Shown: one piece after another, positions 6,061-14,251 of the stretch | Numbering within the stretch: position 1 is the first letter of the stretch | Layout: each line of letters begins with the position of its first letter | Virus record (IMG/VR): IMGVR_UViG_3300037189_018990 | Coordinates: 1-22,147 of that record | DNA from: a virus | Strand: one strand, 5' to 3' | DNA: 22,147 bases | The notes under the pieces: model-generated | Databases searched by the model: none | What the model was told of the DNA's origin: nothing | The model's input: only the letters and a program-made list of their open reading frames with translations | Program-made: the position numbers and the translations under genes

Positions 6061-7125
6061 TTAGAAAGAAGTTAAGCTAGCGTACTGAGTTAATTTACCA
6101 TACCCTGCCTGATTTTGAACTATAACATCTATATTACCTGAGTAGAGAGGTGGTGGCATTGTTAACTGTATGTAATTATCGTTATTAGTTGTATACTGAG
6201 ATGTGAGCAATTGTACAGCTGTAAAACCAGGATAGTTAGCTGATAGGGTTGAATAACCTGAGAACGGATTGTAAAACGTATCAGTACCTTTAAAAGGCAC
6301 ACCAGAAACGTAAACATTAGTTACATCGAAGAATGAACGACCGTATAAGCTATAAACATTAGAAGCTGATAACAATGATGTATAAGGAACGATAGCATCA
6401 GGCTGAGGTTGAGCAGATAGAATTATTCTATCTGTTGTATTCGGATAAGCACTTAATAGATATGCTAATGAATACTGAGTTGTTAATTGAGGTAGAACAG
6501 AATAATCTACCATAATCTTAAAGATATTACCATCATCTTTCGGTATTGACTTAAAGAGCCAACCTTGAAACGTGAATGAAGTATCACCTTGAACTCTTGC
6601 CGTTTGAGTAGCATTAACATCAGTAGGGTAAGTTGTGGTAATATTACCTGACCATACCACTTTACTTCTTATTTCGTAATCGTTAACGTTAGGTATACGC
6701 CAAGAAATTTCAATATACGGATCAAAATAAGGAAATAGATTAGTTATTATTTGATCGAAATCTTCTTGATACCTTGTCAAGATGGACATATTAATAGTTA
6801 AATCAACAGGTATAGGTTGATGAAGTACGTGACTGTAACGAGGGTCATTACTACTAAAGTGAGAACCGGCTATCTTATTAAAGACTCTATTAACATCTCT
6901 AGCTATACCTCCATTAGATACTGCTACGACTGGCAGTTGAATGTTTTGTGCCTTATCTAAAATATCTAAAAGTACACGTTGCTTTGGTGCGTAGACAAAA
7001 CGGCACTGAATTTGATCTTGTGCTATCTTATCTTTATTATAACGTTTAACGACTATATCATCTAAAGCGGCAATGAACATAGTGAACATTGTCGAAACTT
7101 CCCAATTGTATGTATAATCGCGCAT
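6061..7125 (-). CDS. 15: Tail sheath stabiliser/tail completion protein, T4 gp15-like, with extra C-terminal Ig-like domain
   Basis: T4 gp15 caps the contractile tail and joins it to the neck. The first 240 or so residues follow the gp15 plan: an N-terminal MFIAALDDIVVKRYN strand-helix, a basic QIQCRFVYAPKQR block near residue 43, a QPIPVDLTINMSIL strand near residue 103 (compare PVPYDL in T4), a QIITNLFPYFDPYIE helix-strand, and a closing FTFQGWLFK strand. The protein is 354 residues, about 80 longer than T4 gp15. The surplus C-terminal 90-100 residues (SLYGRSFFDVTNVYVSGVPF ... IDVIVQNQAGYG) look like an IPT/TIG or Ig-like domain, which could decorate the neck. The start ATG is preceded by a TTAAATA box 7 nt away, and the upstream gene ends inside that box. 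Gp15 homology is recalled from motifs, not computed. Confidence 0.75.
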   Translation of the reverse strand: MRDYTYNWEVSTMFTMFIAALDDIVVKRYNKDKIAQDQIQCRFVYAPKQRVLLDILDKAQNIQLPVVAVSNGGIARDVNRVFNKIAGSHFSSNDPRYSHVLHQPIPVDLTINMSILTRYQEDFDQIITNLFPYFDPYIEISWRIPNVNDYEIRSKVVWSGNITTTYPTDVNATQTARVQGDTSFTFQGWLFKSIPKDDGNIFKIMVDYSVLPQLTTQYSLAYLLSAYPNTTDRIILSAQPQPDAIVPYTSLLSASNVYSLYGRSFFDVTNVYVSGVPFKGTDTFYNPFSGYSTLSANYPGFTAVQLLTSQYTTNNDNYIQLTMPPPLYSGNIDVIVQNQAGYGKLTQYASLTSF

Positions 7126-7131
7126 TATCTA

Positions 7132-7506
7132 TTATTTAAGTCGAGCTTCTGGATCTGCTTCTATTTCCCCAGCTACTAATATATGTTTTAATACTTCCAT
7201 TGATACTTCAGCTGTTTCCTTATCCATAATACCTTCACTTACAGCGTCAGCTATAATATCAAAATTAAAATGTACATATTTTTTAATAAAGGCTAAAAGT
7301 TCTTGAGGACGCGTTGCCATATAGGCTTCAGCTTCTTTTAAAGCTATCTCTTTATAATTAGGTGCAGTAACATCTATTTCCCCACTCATTAACTTCGCTT
7401 CAAACTGTTCAAAGTATCGTTCTTGTCTTTCATCATAAAAAGCTCTCACGTCTTTCTTAAAGGAGTCAAACATCCGTTCACGGATTATTTCAGGTGAGAG
7501 TTTCAT
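7132..7506 (-). CDS. Conserved-looking phage protein of unknown function, 124 aa
   Basis: I do not recognise this protein. It starts MKLSPEIIRERMFDSFKKDV and is mostly helical and charged. It contains a long helix with FYDERQERYFEQFEAKLMSGE, a middle segment APNYKEIALKEAEAYMATRPQ, and a C-terminal helix EVLKHILVAGE. There is no signal peptide or membrane segment. The open frame extends upstream to 7596, but that extension is hydrophobic and irregular and would run almost to the tmRNA 5' end, so the ATG at 7504-7506 is preferred. A TTAAATA box lies 10 nt before that ATG. It is the first gene of a minus-strand run that continues into gp15, the tailspike and gp20, so a neck or tail role is a reasonable guess from position only. 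Confidence 0.7.
   Translation of the reverse strand: MKLSPEIIRERMFDSFKKDVRAFYDERQERYFEQFEAKLMSGEIDVTAPNYKEIALKEAEAYMATRPQELLAFIKKYVHFNFDIIADAVSEGIMDKETAEVSMEVLKHILVAGEIEADPEARLK
7133..7139 (-). promoter_or_regulatory. T4-late-like TTAAATA box upstream of gp15-like gene
   Basis: Minus strand TTAAATA, then 7 nt (ATAGATA), then ATG at 7125. The box overlaps the TAA stop of the preceding gene, so part of the match is forced by that stop codon. Confidence 0.45.
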
Positions 7507-7516
7507 AGCATAGAAG

Positions 7517-7523
7517 TATTTAA
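7517..7523 (-). promoter_or_regulatory. T4-late-like TTAAATA box upstream of the 124-aa gene
   Basis: Minus strand TTAAATA lies 10 nt before the ATG at 7506. It would be the head promoter for the run 7506 to 1. The spacing is longer than for the other boxes in this window. Confidence 0.35.
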
Positions 7524-7599
7524 GAAAAAAGCTTGTAAATACTACTTTTGTCGCCATAATTAAAAAAGAGCAATTAAGCTCAATGATCTTTGACAATTT

Positions 7600-8043
7600 G
7601 GGGGCGTACTGGCTTCGACTTATAATTGAAGTTTGTATTGCATGCAGTAGTTGATCTGTGGCTACTTTAAAACGGATTAAAAAATAAATGCAAAGGCTAT
7701 TACCAATGCAGTTAAGTCAGTCAAGTCCTTCGTGACAAATATGGCTGAGTCCCTCTTCGCTTGCGAAGACGAGCTCTGCCTTATGGCTGCCTAACACTAA
7801 GAGAGGATCCTATTAAATCTCTTAGCACAACAATAGGTAAATGTAGTTCTTGCGATACTCGTAAATTAAGTGCAAGGGGTGGTATGTGGTCCTTAATCAC
7901 ACATACAGGTAGGACTATAAAAACAGATTGGTCGGCGACACCAGGTTACCTTAAGTCAGCCAAAGTACGAAGTCGTTCTAAGCATGTAGAGGTACAAATA
8001 GACCATTATAAACCCAGGGGTTCGACTCCCCTCGCCTCCACCA
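7600..8043 (+). ncRNA. ssrA: tmRNA (transfer-messenger RNA), one-piece, phage-borne
   Basis: tmRNA rescues stalled ribosomes, acting first as tRNA-Ala and then as a short mRNA. The ends form the tRNA-like domain. GGGGGCG at 7600-7606 pairs with CGCCTCC at 8034-8039 and flanks (one G-U), followed by A and an encoded CCA at 8041-8043. The 5' TGGCTTCGACTT block and the T arm AGGGG-TTCGACT-CCCCT match tmRNA consensus, and GCATGTAGA near 7982 is the usual 3' motif. A clear pseudoknot PK1 is present: AGTAG 7646-7650 with CTACT 7662-7666, and GATCTGT 7653-7659 with ACGGATT 7672-7678. An 8-bp stem CTAAGAGA/TCTCTTAG lies just after the tag stop. Length is 444 nt against about 363 in E. coli; much of the excess is a longer tag frame. 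It opens a plus-strand RNA-gene cluster. It appears intact, with no intron or permutation. Confidence 0.95.
7690..7794 (+). other. tmRNA tag reading frame, 34 codons plus TAA
   Basis: The resume codon is called as GCA at 7690-7692. It lies at tmRNA nucleotide 91 (E. coli: 90) and 12 nt after PK1, following AAAAAATAAAT as in other tmRNAs. The frame runs to TAA at 7792-7794. The tag begins AKAITNAVKSVKSF and ends EDELCLMAA, a hydrophobic C-terminus of the kind read by ClpXP-type proteases. Most tags are roughly 8-20 residues, so 34 is very long. Residues I4, V8, V11, V15, M18 and L22 follow an i+4/i+3 pattern, indicating an amphipathic helix. An in-frame GCT at 7744 would give a 16-residue tag but sits far from PK1. 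Confidence 0.75.
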
Positions 8044-8526: not shown

Positions 8527-8973
8527 ATGGGTGCTACAGGTCTTAATATAAAACAATACAATAATATGCGTAAATTAACAGGTAATATTACAGCTACCTG
8601 TTTTTGCGGTAAAGCGTATACAAGACAGAAACATAGAGCTGGTAAATATTGTAGCTTACAGTGTCAAAAGTTAGAGAGACAGCATATAGCTATAGAAAAA
8701 AATATAACACTTTTTAAGCAAGGTAAACTTACTATTAGAGGTGTAATAAAACGAACCATGCTAGCAATGGGTATTGAACATAAATGTCAGATATGCGGTT
8801 TAACAGAATGGCTCGGTAAACCTATTTCAATGGTACTTGATCATATCAACGGTCGTGCAGATAATAATTTACCAGAAAACTTACGTCTTATCTGTCATAA
8901 CTGTGATTCACAAACCGATCATTATAAAGGTAGAAATAAAGGCAACGGACGTAAAGCTTTAGGATTAATATAA
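8527..8973 (+). CDS. HNH homing-type endonuclease, free-standing
   Basis: This is a 148-residue DNA endonuclease. An N-terminal Cys cluster (CFCG at 25-28 and YCSLQC at 41-46) looks like a zinc ribbon. A central helical region carries a RG-rich segment. The C-terminal HNH core has CQIC (87-90), LDHINGRADN (104-113), ENLRLICHNC (117-126) and SQTDHYKGRNKG. The DH is the metal/catalytic pair, with N118 next, and Cys87/90/123/126 form the structural zinc site. It stands between tRNA-Thr and tRNA-Glu with no intron evident, so it is probably a selfish mobile endonuclease resident in the tRNA island. An ATG at 8566 (residue 14, MRKLTGN) is an alternative start. The 8527 start is preferred because an ATAAATA box sits 6 nt upstream, as in neighbouring genes. 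Confidence 0.9.
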   Translation: MGATGLNIKQYNNMRKLTGNITATCFCGKAYTRQKHRAGKYCSLQCQKLERQHIAIEKNITLFKQGKLTIRGVIKRTMLAMGIEHKCQICGLTEWLGKPISMVLDHINGRADNNLPENLRLICHNCDSQTDHYKGRNKGNGRKALGLI

Positions 8974-9207: not shown

Positions 9208-9783
9208 CTTCGGCGCTCAACCGGCTAAAGCAAACATATCAACTCGCTTAATAAAGGAGAACACATATGACAACACACAACACATACACACTAGGCAGGG
9301 TCATTCCTGCAACAGGATCTGGTTATAGCCAACTTCCAGCTCTGTTTAACGAAAGTTGGTTCAGTGAACTGTTTAAGGATGTAGATAAAGCATTTGATAT
9401 TCCAAATGCAACATATCCTTATAACGTTAAAGCAACTACCGATAAGAATAAGGTGCCAACTAGCTATACTATTGAAGTAGCTTTGGCAGGTGTCGGTAAA
9501 GATAATATTACTGTTAAGGTGCAAGATAGGCATCTGAACATTGATATTAATAAAGAAGAGGAGACAACTGATGAGATTATCTCCTACGTCAAGAAAGGTA
9601 TTAGCAGGAGGAAAGGACAATTGTCTTTCGCTCTTTCTGATAAGACTGACGCAAAAAACATCGCATCAACCTACGTGGACGGTCTCTTGCGAGTTACCGT
9701 TCCAGTAGTTCAACCGGAGGTCATTAATATTGACGTAAAGGTTGATTAAGAGTTTAATTTAGCCTTGCAGTTGAGCGCCGAAG
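9208..9783. repeat. Long inverted repeat flanking hsp20
   Basis: CTTCGGCGCTCAAC at 9208-9221 is perfectly inverted as GTTGAGCGCCGAAG at 9770-9783. A second block GGCTAAA (9223-9229) is inverted as TTTAGCC (9758-9764), offset by a few bases. The arms enclose the whole hsp20 gene. Each arm also has a local fold: TTGCTT/AAGCAA upstream and AGCCTT/AAGGCT downstream. Confidence 0.75.
9267..9749 (+). CDS. hsp20: Small heat-shock protein, Hsp20/alpha-crystallin family
   Basis: This is an ATP-independent holdase of 160 residues. The N-terminal arm (1-50) is variable and contains SWFSELFKDVDKAFD. The alpha-crystallin domain begins at about residue 51 (YPYNVKAT) and includes YTIEVALAGVGKDNITVKV, the loop with NKEEE, the KGISRRKGQLSFALSD strand pair and the hallmark A-x-x-x-DGLLRVTVP near residues 135-147. 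The C-terminal I-x-I oligomerisation motif is present (INI near residue 155). Phage Hsp20 proteins are a known feature of marine T4-like phages. Unlike its neighbours it has a strong Shine-Dalgarno, AAGGAG at 9254-9259, 7 nt before the ATG, so it may be translated early or under different control. It is followed by an intrinsic terminator and enclosed in an inverted repeat. Confidence 0.93.
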   Translation: MTTHNTYTLGRVIPATGSGYSQLPALFNESWFSELFKDVDKAFDIPNATYPYNVKATTDKNKVPTSYTIEVALAGVGKDNITVKVQDRHLNIDINKEEETTDEIISYVKKGISRRKGQLSFALSDKTDAKNIASTYVDGLLRVTVPVVQPEVINIDVKVD

Positions 9784-13418: not shown

Positions 13419-13808
13419 TTAGTTATTCATAAATGCCGCCTTTTGATCGGAGGACATTGGTATAAGATTTTCGTTAAAGTATTTCCAAAACTCTGTAGCA
13501 TCAGGAGATGTTTTAATAACCGATACAACATCAACATCATTACAATTTATCATTCTGTAACTTTGCATAAACACATCCCATACCGGTATTAAATTTTTTT
13601 GAGCTGGGTTATACTTCAATCCTCCGTCCCTTGGAGGGTTGTAATTAAGAATATTTCTACCTAATTGAGAATTTAAAAGTAATCTATCATTGGTGCAAAG
13701 CATTCGTCTATAATCTTTATAGCCTGCTTTCTCTATACGTCTTCTAAAGCGTACTTCAACAACGCTATTCTGTAGAAGAAGTGTTAAAGCACCAATTCCT
13801 ATTCTCAC
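13419..13808 (-). CDS. SH3-like beta-barrel (DUF2693/WYL_2-like) phage protein
   Basis: The 129-residue protein starts at a GTG that overlaps the gp31-like stop (GTGA). The pattern NSVVEVRFRRR (14-24), RRMLCTND (34-41), NLIPVWDVFMQSYRMIN (near 71-87) and VDVVSVIKT matches the small phage SH3-barrel family once called DUF2693. In that family a Cys/Thr-containing strand is followed by V-W-D-V and an aromatic-rich strand. The family has no firmly known biochemical function. The C-terminal FWKYFNENLIPMSSDQKAAFMNN is a helix pair. Related proteins beside gp31/gp62 in marine T4-like phages are my recollection, not a search result. Confidence 0.6.
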   Translation of the reverse strand: MRIGIGALTLLLQNSVVEVRFRRRIEKAGYKDYRRMLCTNDRLLLNSQLGRNILNYNPPRDGGLKYNPAQKNLIPVWDVFMQSYRMINCNDVDVVSVIKTSPDATEFWKYFNENLIPMSSDQKAAFMNN

Positions 13809-14251
13809 TGCTTCTTTTTAAGCACCTTCCTTTTAATAGGTGGTAAAACAGATGTAGCTTCAGTTTTGGGTGTAAAATTAATAGGCTCACAAATACCGAA
13901 AATTCTATTTTCGGATAAGAATACCATCATCTTACCATTCCTCTGTAGCGCTTGAAGACCTCTATCTCCAGGGAAGATAACAGTGTCTCCTTTCTTAACT
14001 GTTTTACAATCTGGACCAACTAACATAACCCTAGCAATACGCCAGGCTCTGTTATCAACAATCTGTCCAGGAAGAATAATACCATTACGGACAAGGCTCT
14101 TACCATCTTCAGCTGTATCCAAATACTCTACTGAAATAACATCTCCGAGGAGTTGAGTGATTTCATAATCCTCTGGAAGAGGAAGGTTCTTATAATCTTC
14201 AGGTGCAATGCCTTGATTCTCTTGAACAGCGTTAATTTGTTGTTGATACAT
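13805..14251 (-). CDS. 31: GroES-like co-chaperonin, T4 gp31 analogue
   Basis: T4 gp31 replaces GroES so that host GroEL can fold the major capsid protein. The GroES core is visible: LLGDVISVEYLD (34-45), a mobile-loop-like segment SLVRNGIILPGQ (52-63), ARVMLVGPDCKTVKKGDTVIFPG (73-95) and MMVFLSENRIFGI (108-120). GroES-like proteins have the same order: I/V-P-L strand, mobile loop with a hydrophobic triad, G-x-G-x-x-VKxGDxVxF. Length is 148 against 111 for T4 gp31 and 97 for GroES. The extras are an N-terminal 25 residues and a basic tail ending RKVLKKKQ. A near match to the late box (TTAAATT) lies 7 nt before the ATG. It sits next to gp62, consistent with a T4-like core block. Confidence 0.85.
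   Translation of the reverse strand: MYQQQINAVQENQGIAPEDYKNLPLPEDYEITQLLGDVISVEYLDTAEDGKSLVRNGIILPGQIVDNRAWRIARVMLVGPDCKTVKKGDTVIFPGDRGLQALQRNGKMMVFLSENRIFGICEPINFTPKTEATSVLPPIKRKVLKKKQ

Follow-up and report, generated by a model that had tools for sequence, protein, structure and literature searches.

Long tmRNA tags with a conserved amphipathic helix pattern in a group of uncultured T4-like phages

Introduction

Peptide tags encoded by transfer-messenger RNA (tmRNA, SsrA) have been reported with 8 to 35 residues (PMC8012679), the commonest length being 10 (PMC11915505). In Mesoplasma florum the tag exceeds the E. coli tag in length and is read by Lon, and Mollicute tags end in NYAFA (PMC9382460). 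Phage tmRNAs listed earlier are those of Bacillus phage G and of Mycobacterium phages Bxz1, Wildcat and others (PMC4131195).

Here we describe a tmRNA gene on an IMG/VR record of 22,147 nt (the window, which is the whole stretch of DNA analyzed), together with its relatives in other viral contigs. With the one-piece tmRNAs of Rfam family RF00023 it shares the tRNA-like domain, the G.U pair, CCA and pseudoknot PK1, as well as an alanine resume codon, a tag frame with a stop codon and pseudoknot PK2. Unlike the usual member of that family it has a tag of 34 codons instead of 10, and this tag carries a conserved amphipathic helix. The Lon-read tags of Mollicutes (PMC9382460) likewise exceed the usual length, but they have the NYAFA end and no sequence relation to the tags described here was seen. 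The tmRNAs of phage G, Bxz1 and Wildcat are likewise phage-borne, but belong to other phages than the uncultured T4-like ones studied here, and no cultured phage record matched the window's tag or tmRNA. An initial annotation of this DNA had put ordinary tags at roughly a third to a half of the window tag's length, which agrees with the mode of 10 (PMC11915505), but published tags reach 35 residues (PMC8012679). The length is thus extreme, at the top of the published range, yet not unprecedented; what is new is the conserved helical tag family rather than the length itself.

Genomic context of the tmRNA gene

Judged by its gene content the window is a 22-kb fragment of an uncultured T4-like phage, with genes for a gp15-like tail sheath stabilizer, a gp62-like clamp loader, Hsp20 and a dCMP deaminase. 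The tmRNA gene, its pseudoknots and its neighbors are the following:

6061..7125, minus strand: T4 gp15-like tail sheath stabilizer (PF16724, E 1e-20; phrog_227), which places the phage
7132..7596, minus strand: ORF adjoining the tmRNA gene, without Pfam or PHROG match
7600..8043, plus strand: one-piece tmRNA gene (ssrA), CCA encoded (Rfam RF00023)
7648..7678, plus strand: pseudoknot PK1, with stem 1 GUAG/CUAC and stem 2 GAUCUG/CGGAUU (pair counts, compensatory changes)
7797..7840 (outer limits approximate), plus strand: pseudoknot PK2, CUAAGAGA/UCUCUUAG and CCUAUU/AAUAGG, directly 3' of the stop codon

The closest cultured relatives, which share about 22-29% identity in gp15 and about 34-36% in the capsid protein gp23, are mostly cyanophages and too distant for a host name to be assigned. 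Among 32 records, many of which are fragments, gp23 was found in 12. A counterpart of the ORF at 7132..7596 also adjoins the tmRNA gene in contig L260, and three tRNA genes lie near the tmRNA gene in the window. An HNH endonuclease gene (8527-8973, plus strand), located just 3' of the tmRNA gene and two tRNA genes, is possibly a mobile element gene belonging to the RNA cluster. Hsp20 (9267-9749, plus strand) and a GroES-like co-chaperonin (13805-14251, minus strand) are further protein-quality genes on the same fragment.

Structure of the tmRNA

The window tmRNA matches RF00023 over the full model with 106.1 bits (E 6e-41; gathering score 47), so that the covariance model agrees with the tmRNA call of the initial annotation. 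For the structure tests we aligned 23 tmRNAs, comprising the window tmRNA and 22 phage homologues with 51-84% identity to it. The tRNA-like domain of the window tmRNA has the acceptor pairs and the CCA end, and the third acceptor pair is G.U in all 22 aligned copies in which both sides are present. This pair is the determinant recognized by alanyl-tRNA synthetase.

In PK1 100% of the alignment cells of stem 1 and 94% of those of stem 2 are paired, with changes on both sides in three of four and in six of six pairs, respectively, and the pairing exceeds every slid control. PK1 of the window tmRNA is therefore real, backed by compensatory changes. The two PK2 helices are paired in 71% and 87% of the cells, and when all four pseudoknot helices are taken jointly, their pairing greatly exceeds that of shuffled and slid controls.

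Reading frame and resume codon of the tag

7690..7692, plus strand: resume codon GCA (place after PK1; GCA or GCT at the homologous site in relatives)
7690..7794, plus strand: tag reading frame of 34 codons plus TAA at 7792-7794 (selection, in-phase indels, stop-free relatives)

From GCA at 7690 to GCC TAA the frame encodes AKAITNAVKSVKSFVTNMAESLFACEDELCLMAA, which makes an added peptide of 35 residues if the tmRNA-borne alanine is counted. The GCA sits 11 nt 3' of PK1, separated from it by AAAAAATAAAT; the PK1 covariation bears out the earlier placement of the resume codon just after this pseudoknot, while the spacing of 12 nt given at the time needs correction. An A-rich element, e.g. AACTAAAT, precedes the resume GCA or GCT in relatives.

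The relatives were gathered from viral contigs by neighboring-gene and sequence-pattern searches. Including the window's, at least 27 distinct long phage tags were obtained, one cut by a contig end and 26 complete with lengths clustering at 31-35 codons across seven tmRNA clusters (75% identity cut); more long tags were read outside this main set in L176, L207, L202, L054 and L260. The tags fall mainly in two subgroups, one window-like (AKAI...) and one sister subgroup (AEDNTDAILAEAEYIFNNADEFL...). Because the search patterns favored window-like 5' ends, these counts give no estimate of how frequent long tags are among all phage tmRNAs.

Several lines of evidence bear on the frame. Stops interrupt frame +1 in 25 and frame +2 in all 27 of the distinct tags, and no relative has an in-frame stop in the stretch that corresponds to 7690-7744, the place where the initial annotation had suggested looking for one. 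Within codons 1-18 in-phase indels of 3 nt occur in L095, L076, L078 and L260. The comparison of synonymous and non-synonymous changes, likewise proposed there, gave a tag pN/pS of 0.38 in the window subgroup (2 of 500 column shuffles as low) and of 0.18 in the sister subgroup (0 of 500), with about 0.8 to 2.6 in the other frames. For codons 1-18 alone the ratio is 0.08 in the sister subgroup (0 of 500 shuffles as low) and 0.46 in the window subgroup, where it is not significant (57 of 500 shuffles, and 77 of 1000 in a run with seven sequences); for this part the decisive selection signal comes from the sister subgroup, that of the window subgroup being weak alone. The position of PK1, the homologous GCA/GCT, the in-phase indels, the distribution of stops and the selection together place the resume codon at 7690 and not at 7744; the alignment of the 23 tmRNAs with its PK1 covariation likewise points to 7690. 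With the RF00023 match, the in-frame selection and the stop-free relatives, the phage tmRNA with a 34-codon tag from GCA 7690 to TAA stands as first proposed, and we regard it as near certain from the comparison of sequences that a translated tag of this length exists.

Amphipathic helix

7696..7758, plus strand: segment coding for the predicted amphipathic helix, tag residues 3-23 (hydrophobic moment P 0.004; AlphaFold2 helix)

Over residues 3-24 the window tag has a hydrophobic moment of 0.42 at 100 degrees, the angle at which the moment peaks (residue shuffling, P = 0.004). In most relatives P is below 0.05, and in a joint test of eight representative tags none of 5000 shuffles reached the helix moment; the signal is absent from one distant tag, that of L189. 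AlphaFold2, run on the tag alignment, gave a single helix over residues 2-33 with a pLDDT of 83-87 over residues 1-20 and lower values thereafter, which lends the helix weak support, since the program readily predicts helices for peptides as short as 34 residues when the alignment is shallow. The moment bears out the helical face noted in the initial annotation, a heptad-like hydrophobic pattern, and the model agrees with it. The tag is maintained by selection in this group of related uncultured phages, and its length and helix pattern are conserved. Net tag charge is not conserved: the window tag has -1 and the L122 tag +2, and the tags of the sister group lie at about -9 to -11. Because charge differs between subgroups, one shared partner surface is not obvious.

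C-terminal end and possible function of the tag

7765..7791, plus strand: acidic C-terminal part ending in LMAA, probable protease degron (sequence; -AA ends in the family)

A C-terminal -AA is the end recognized by ClpX. It is found on 23 of the 26 complete family tags (the other three end in LFA, LFA and AAV), and as the window tag ends in LMAA, a ClpX-type ssrA degron with an LAA-like end has probably been kept in the family. An SspB-type N-terminal motif resembling AANDENY is absent from the window tag, which starts (A)AKAITN, while the sister-group tags start (A)AEDN and are only loosely like it. A search for phage SmpB genes in 32 phage records, which include many fragments, gave none, so that host SmpB presumably serves; SspB was found in none of 23 records and a ClpP-family protein in four of the 23.

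The best overall explanation, to which we give a probability of roughly 55%, is a working tmRNA of a T4-like phage whose tag combines a degron with a helical docking segment. In the infected cell the phage tmRNA would be charged with alanine and, with the help of host SmpB, would enter ribosomes stalled on broken mRNA. Translation would resume at GCA 7690, and the unfinished chain would gain alanine plus 34 residues, that is, a putative ClpX-type -AA degron with an amphipathic helix, about 20 residues long, in front of it. Most likely this helix would provide a surface on which an adaptor or protease domain, of host or phage origin, docks, and docking could speed or steer the handover of tagged proteins to proteolysis in the infected cell. 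For the combined role of degradation and docking, a proposal built on sequence features, we consider the chances about even; docking itself is a guess, as no partner protein was found among the families tested. Since most tags end in -AA, degradation with an extra docking helix is favored over evasion of ClpX, and the suggestion that the tag steers products away from ClpX has accordingly lost ground; redirection to a partner, suggested along with it, may occur.

An unlikely alternative, though the best placed one, is that the tag acts simply as a degron and that the host protease reading it is not ClpXP but one, such as Lon or FtsH, which needs a longer and partly hydrophobic tail. The long Lon-read tag of Mesoplasma florum is a precedent (PMC9382460), the window tag has a hydrophobic helical stretch, and the three tags with LFA, LFA and AAV ends depart from -AA. 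Mollicute tags end in NYAFA (PMC9382460), however, an end present on no family tag, and most family tags have the -AA typical for ClpX. The conserved length and the coiled-coil-like hydrophobic spacing of 3-4 residues would also suit a role beyond degradation, as envisaged in the initial annotation, with a helix that gathers tagged chains or brings them to a phage factor and the chains being sequestered or stabilized rather than destroyed, but the degron-like ending is kept and no candidate partner turned up among the families tested (SmpB, SspB and ClpP), which makes such a role quite improbable. Equally hard to favor is the idea that the length of the tag merely follows from constraints on the RNA, such as room for a helix or the spacing to PK2, with the amino acids mattering little: although the tag region of the window contains a short local hairpin (CUUCGCUUGCGAAG) and the window subgroup shows DNA-level conservation of codons 1-18, the consensus fold has only a 3-bp helix inside the tag region, and selection acts in-frame, on amino acids. 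A true resume codon at 7744 (GCT) or at another later codon, with an untranslated linker RNA upstream, is the kind of shortened tag that ARAGORN gives in relatives (e.g. VAESLFSQEEDYCLMAA in L145), but this program gives no tag of 34 or more codons in full, and we rejected 7744 on the position of PK1, the in-phase indels 5' of it, the sister-group selection on codons 1-18 and the stop-free relatives, leaving this reading a very small chance.

The analysis shows ribosome-rescue RNAs in a group of T4-like phages whose helical tags are under selection and lie at the upper end of known tag lengths, and such tags suggest that phages alter what becomes of tagged proteins in infected cells. A bolder proposition, which we hold to be doubtful, is that T4-like phages have evolved a rescue tag with a built-in helical interaction module, by which the phage and not the host would route unfinished proteins, for example to a protease adaptor or complex of the phage's choice.

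Detection by gene finders and distribution

ARAGORN found no tmRNA in the window. In 22 records with tags of 34 or more codons it recovered none in full (14 missed, seven shortened, one in the wrong frame), and of the tags with 32-33 codons it gave complete ones for L065, L084 and L119, while others were missed or shortened. ARAGORN and BLASTN hits supplied the main candidates of the largest tmRNA database (2025; PMC11915505), so that long tags may be under-recorded.

Neither the tmRNA nor the whole window showed DNA similarity to cultured phages, and tblastn with the tag gave no real match in them. The peptide AEYIFNNA had 24 matches in bacterial genomes, none of them in a tmRNA, and the tag profile found nothing in 694 genomes of two bacterial phyla, while its positive control recovered eight of 13 phage records.

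Other tmRNAs in viral contigs

In L202 (5132-5740) and L260 (844-1485) an insert of about 0.6 kb occupies the same site in PK1 of the tmRNA. It encodes an endonuclease VII-like protein (PF02945), 65% identical between the two, and its two ends have complementary sequences of about 25 bp or more; the insert may be excised, or folded out with PK1 still forming. A hairpin pattern derived from it matches only these two contigs. In L202 a group I intron (RF00028, 83 bits) is additionally located in the T-loop (6089-6293), so that this tmRNA gene is interrupted twice. In the published survey tmRNA introns are known only in the T-loop (PMC11915505). The tmRNA of a 195-kb T4-like phage record (L054, 1520-1961, minus strand) has the T-loop GGCAGCA instead of the GTTCRA motif, and its D-loop region is also changed.

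Outside the family, a phage-contig tmRNA in L195 (3382, plus strand) and L212 (13555, plus strand) encodes a proline-containing tag of 35 codons (ANTDNVVYANFGEGVSDAPTQMSEPTPWAPMAIAA), so that long tags may have more than one origin. What appears to be the coding piece of two-piece (permuted) tmRNAs was seen in the phage contigs L104, L105, L109, L133, L136 and L151, and a viral-contig tmRNA in L142 (854, plus strand) has a very short tag of seven codons, ADYAIAA.
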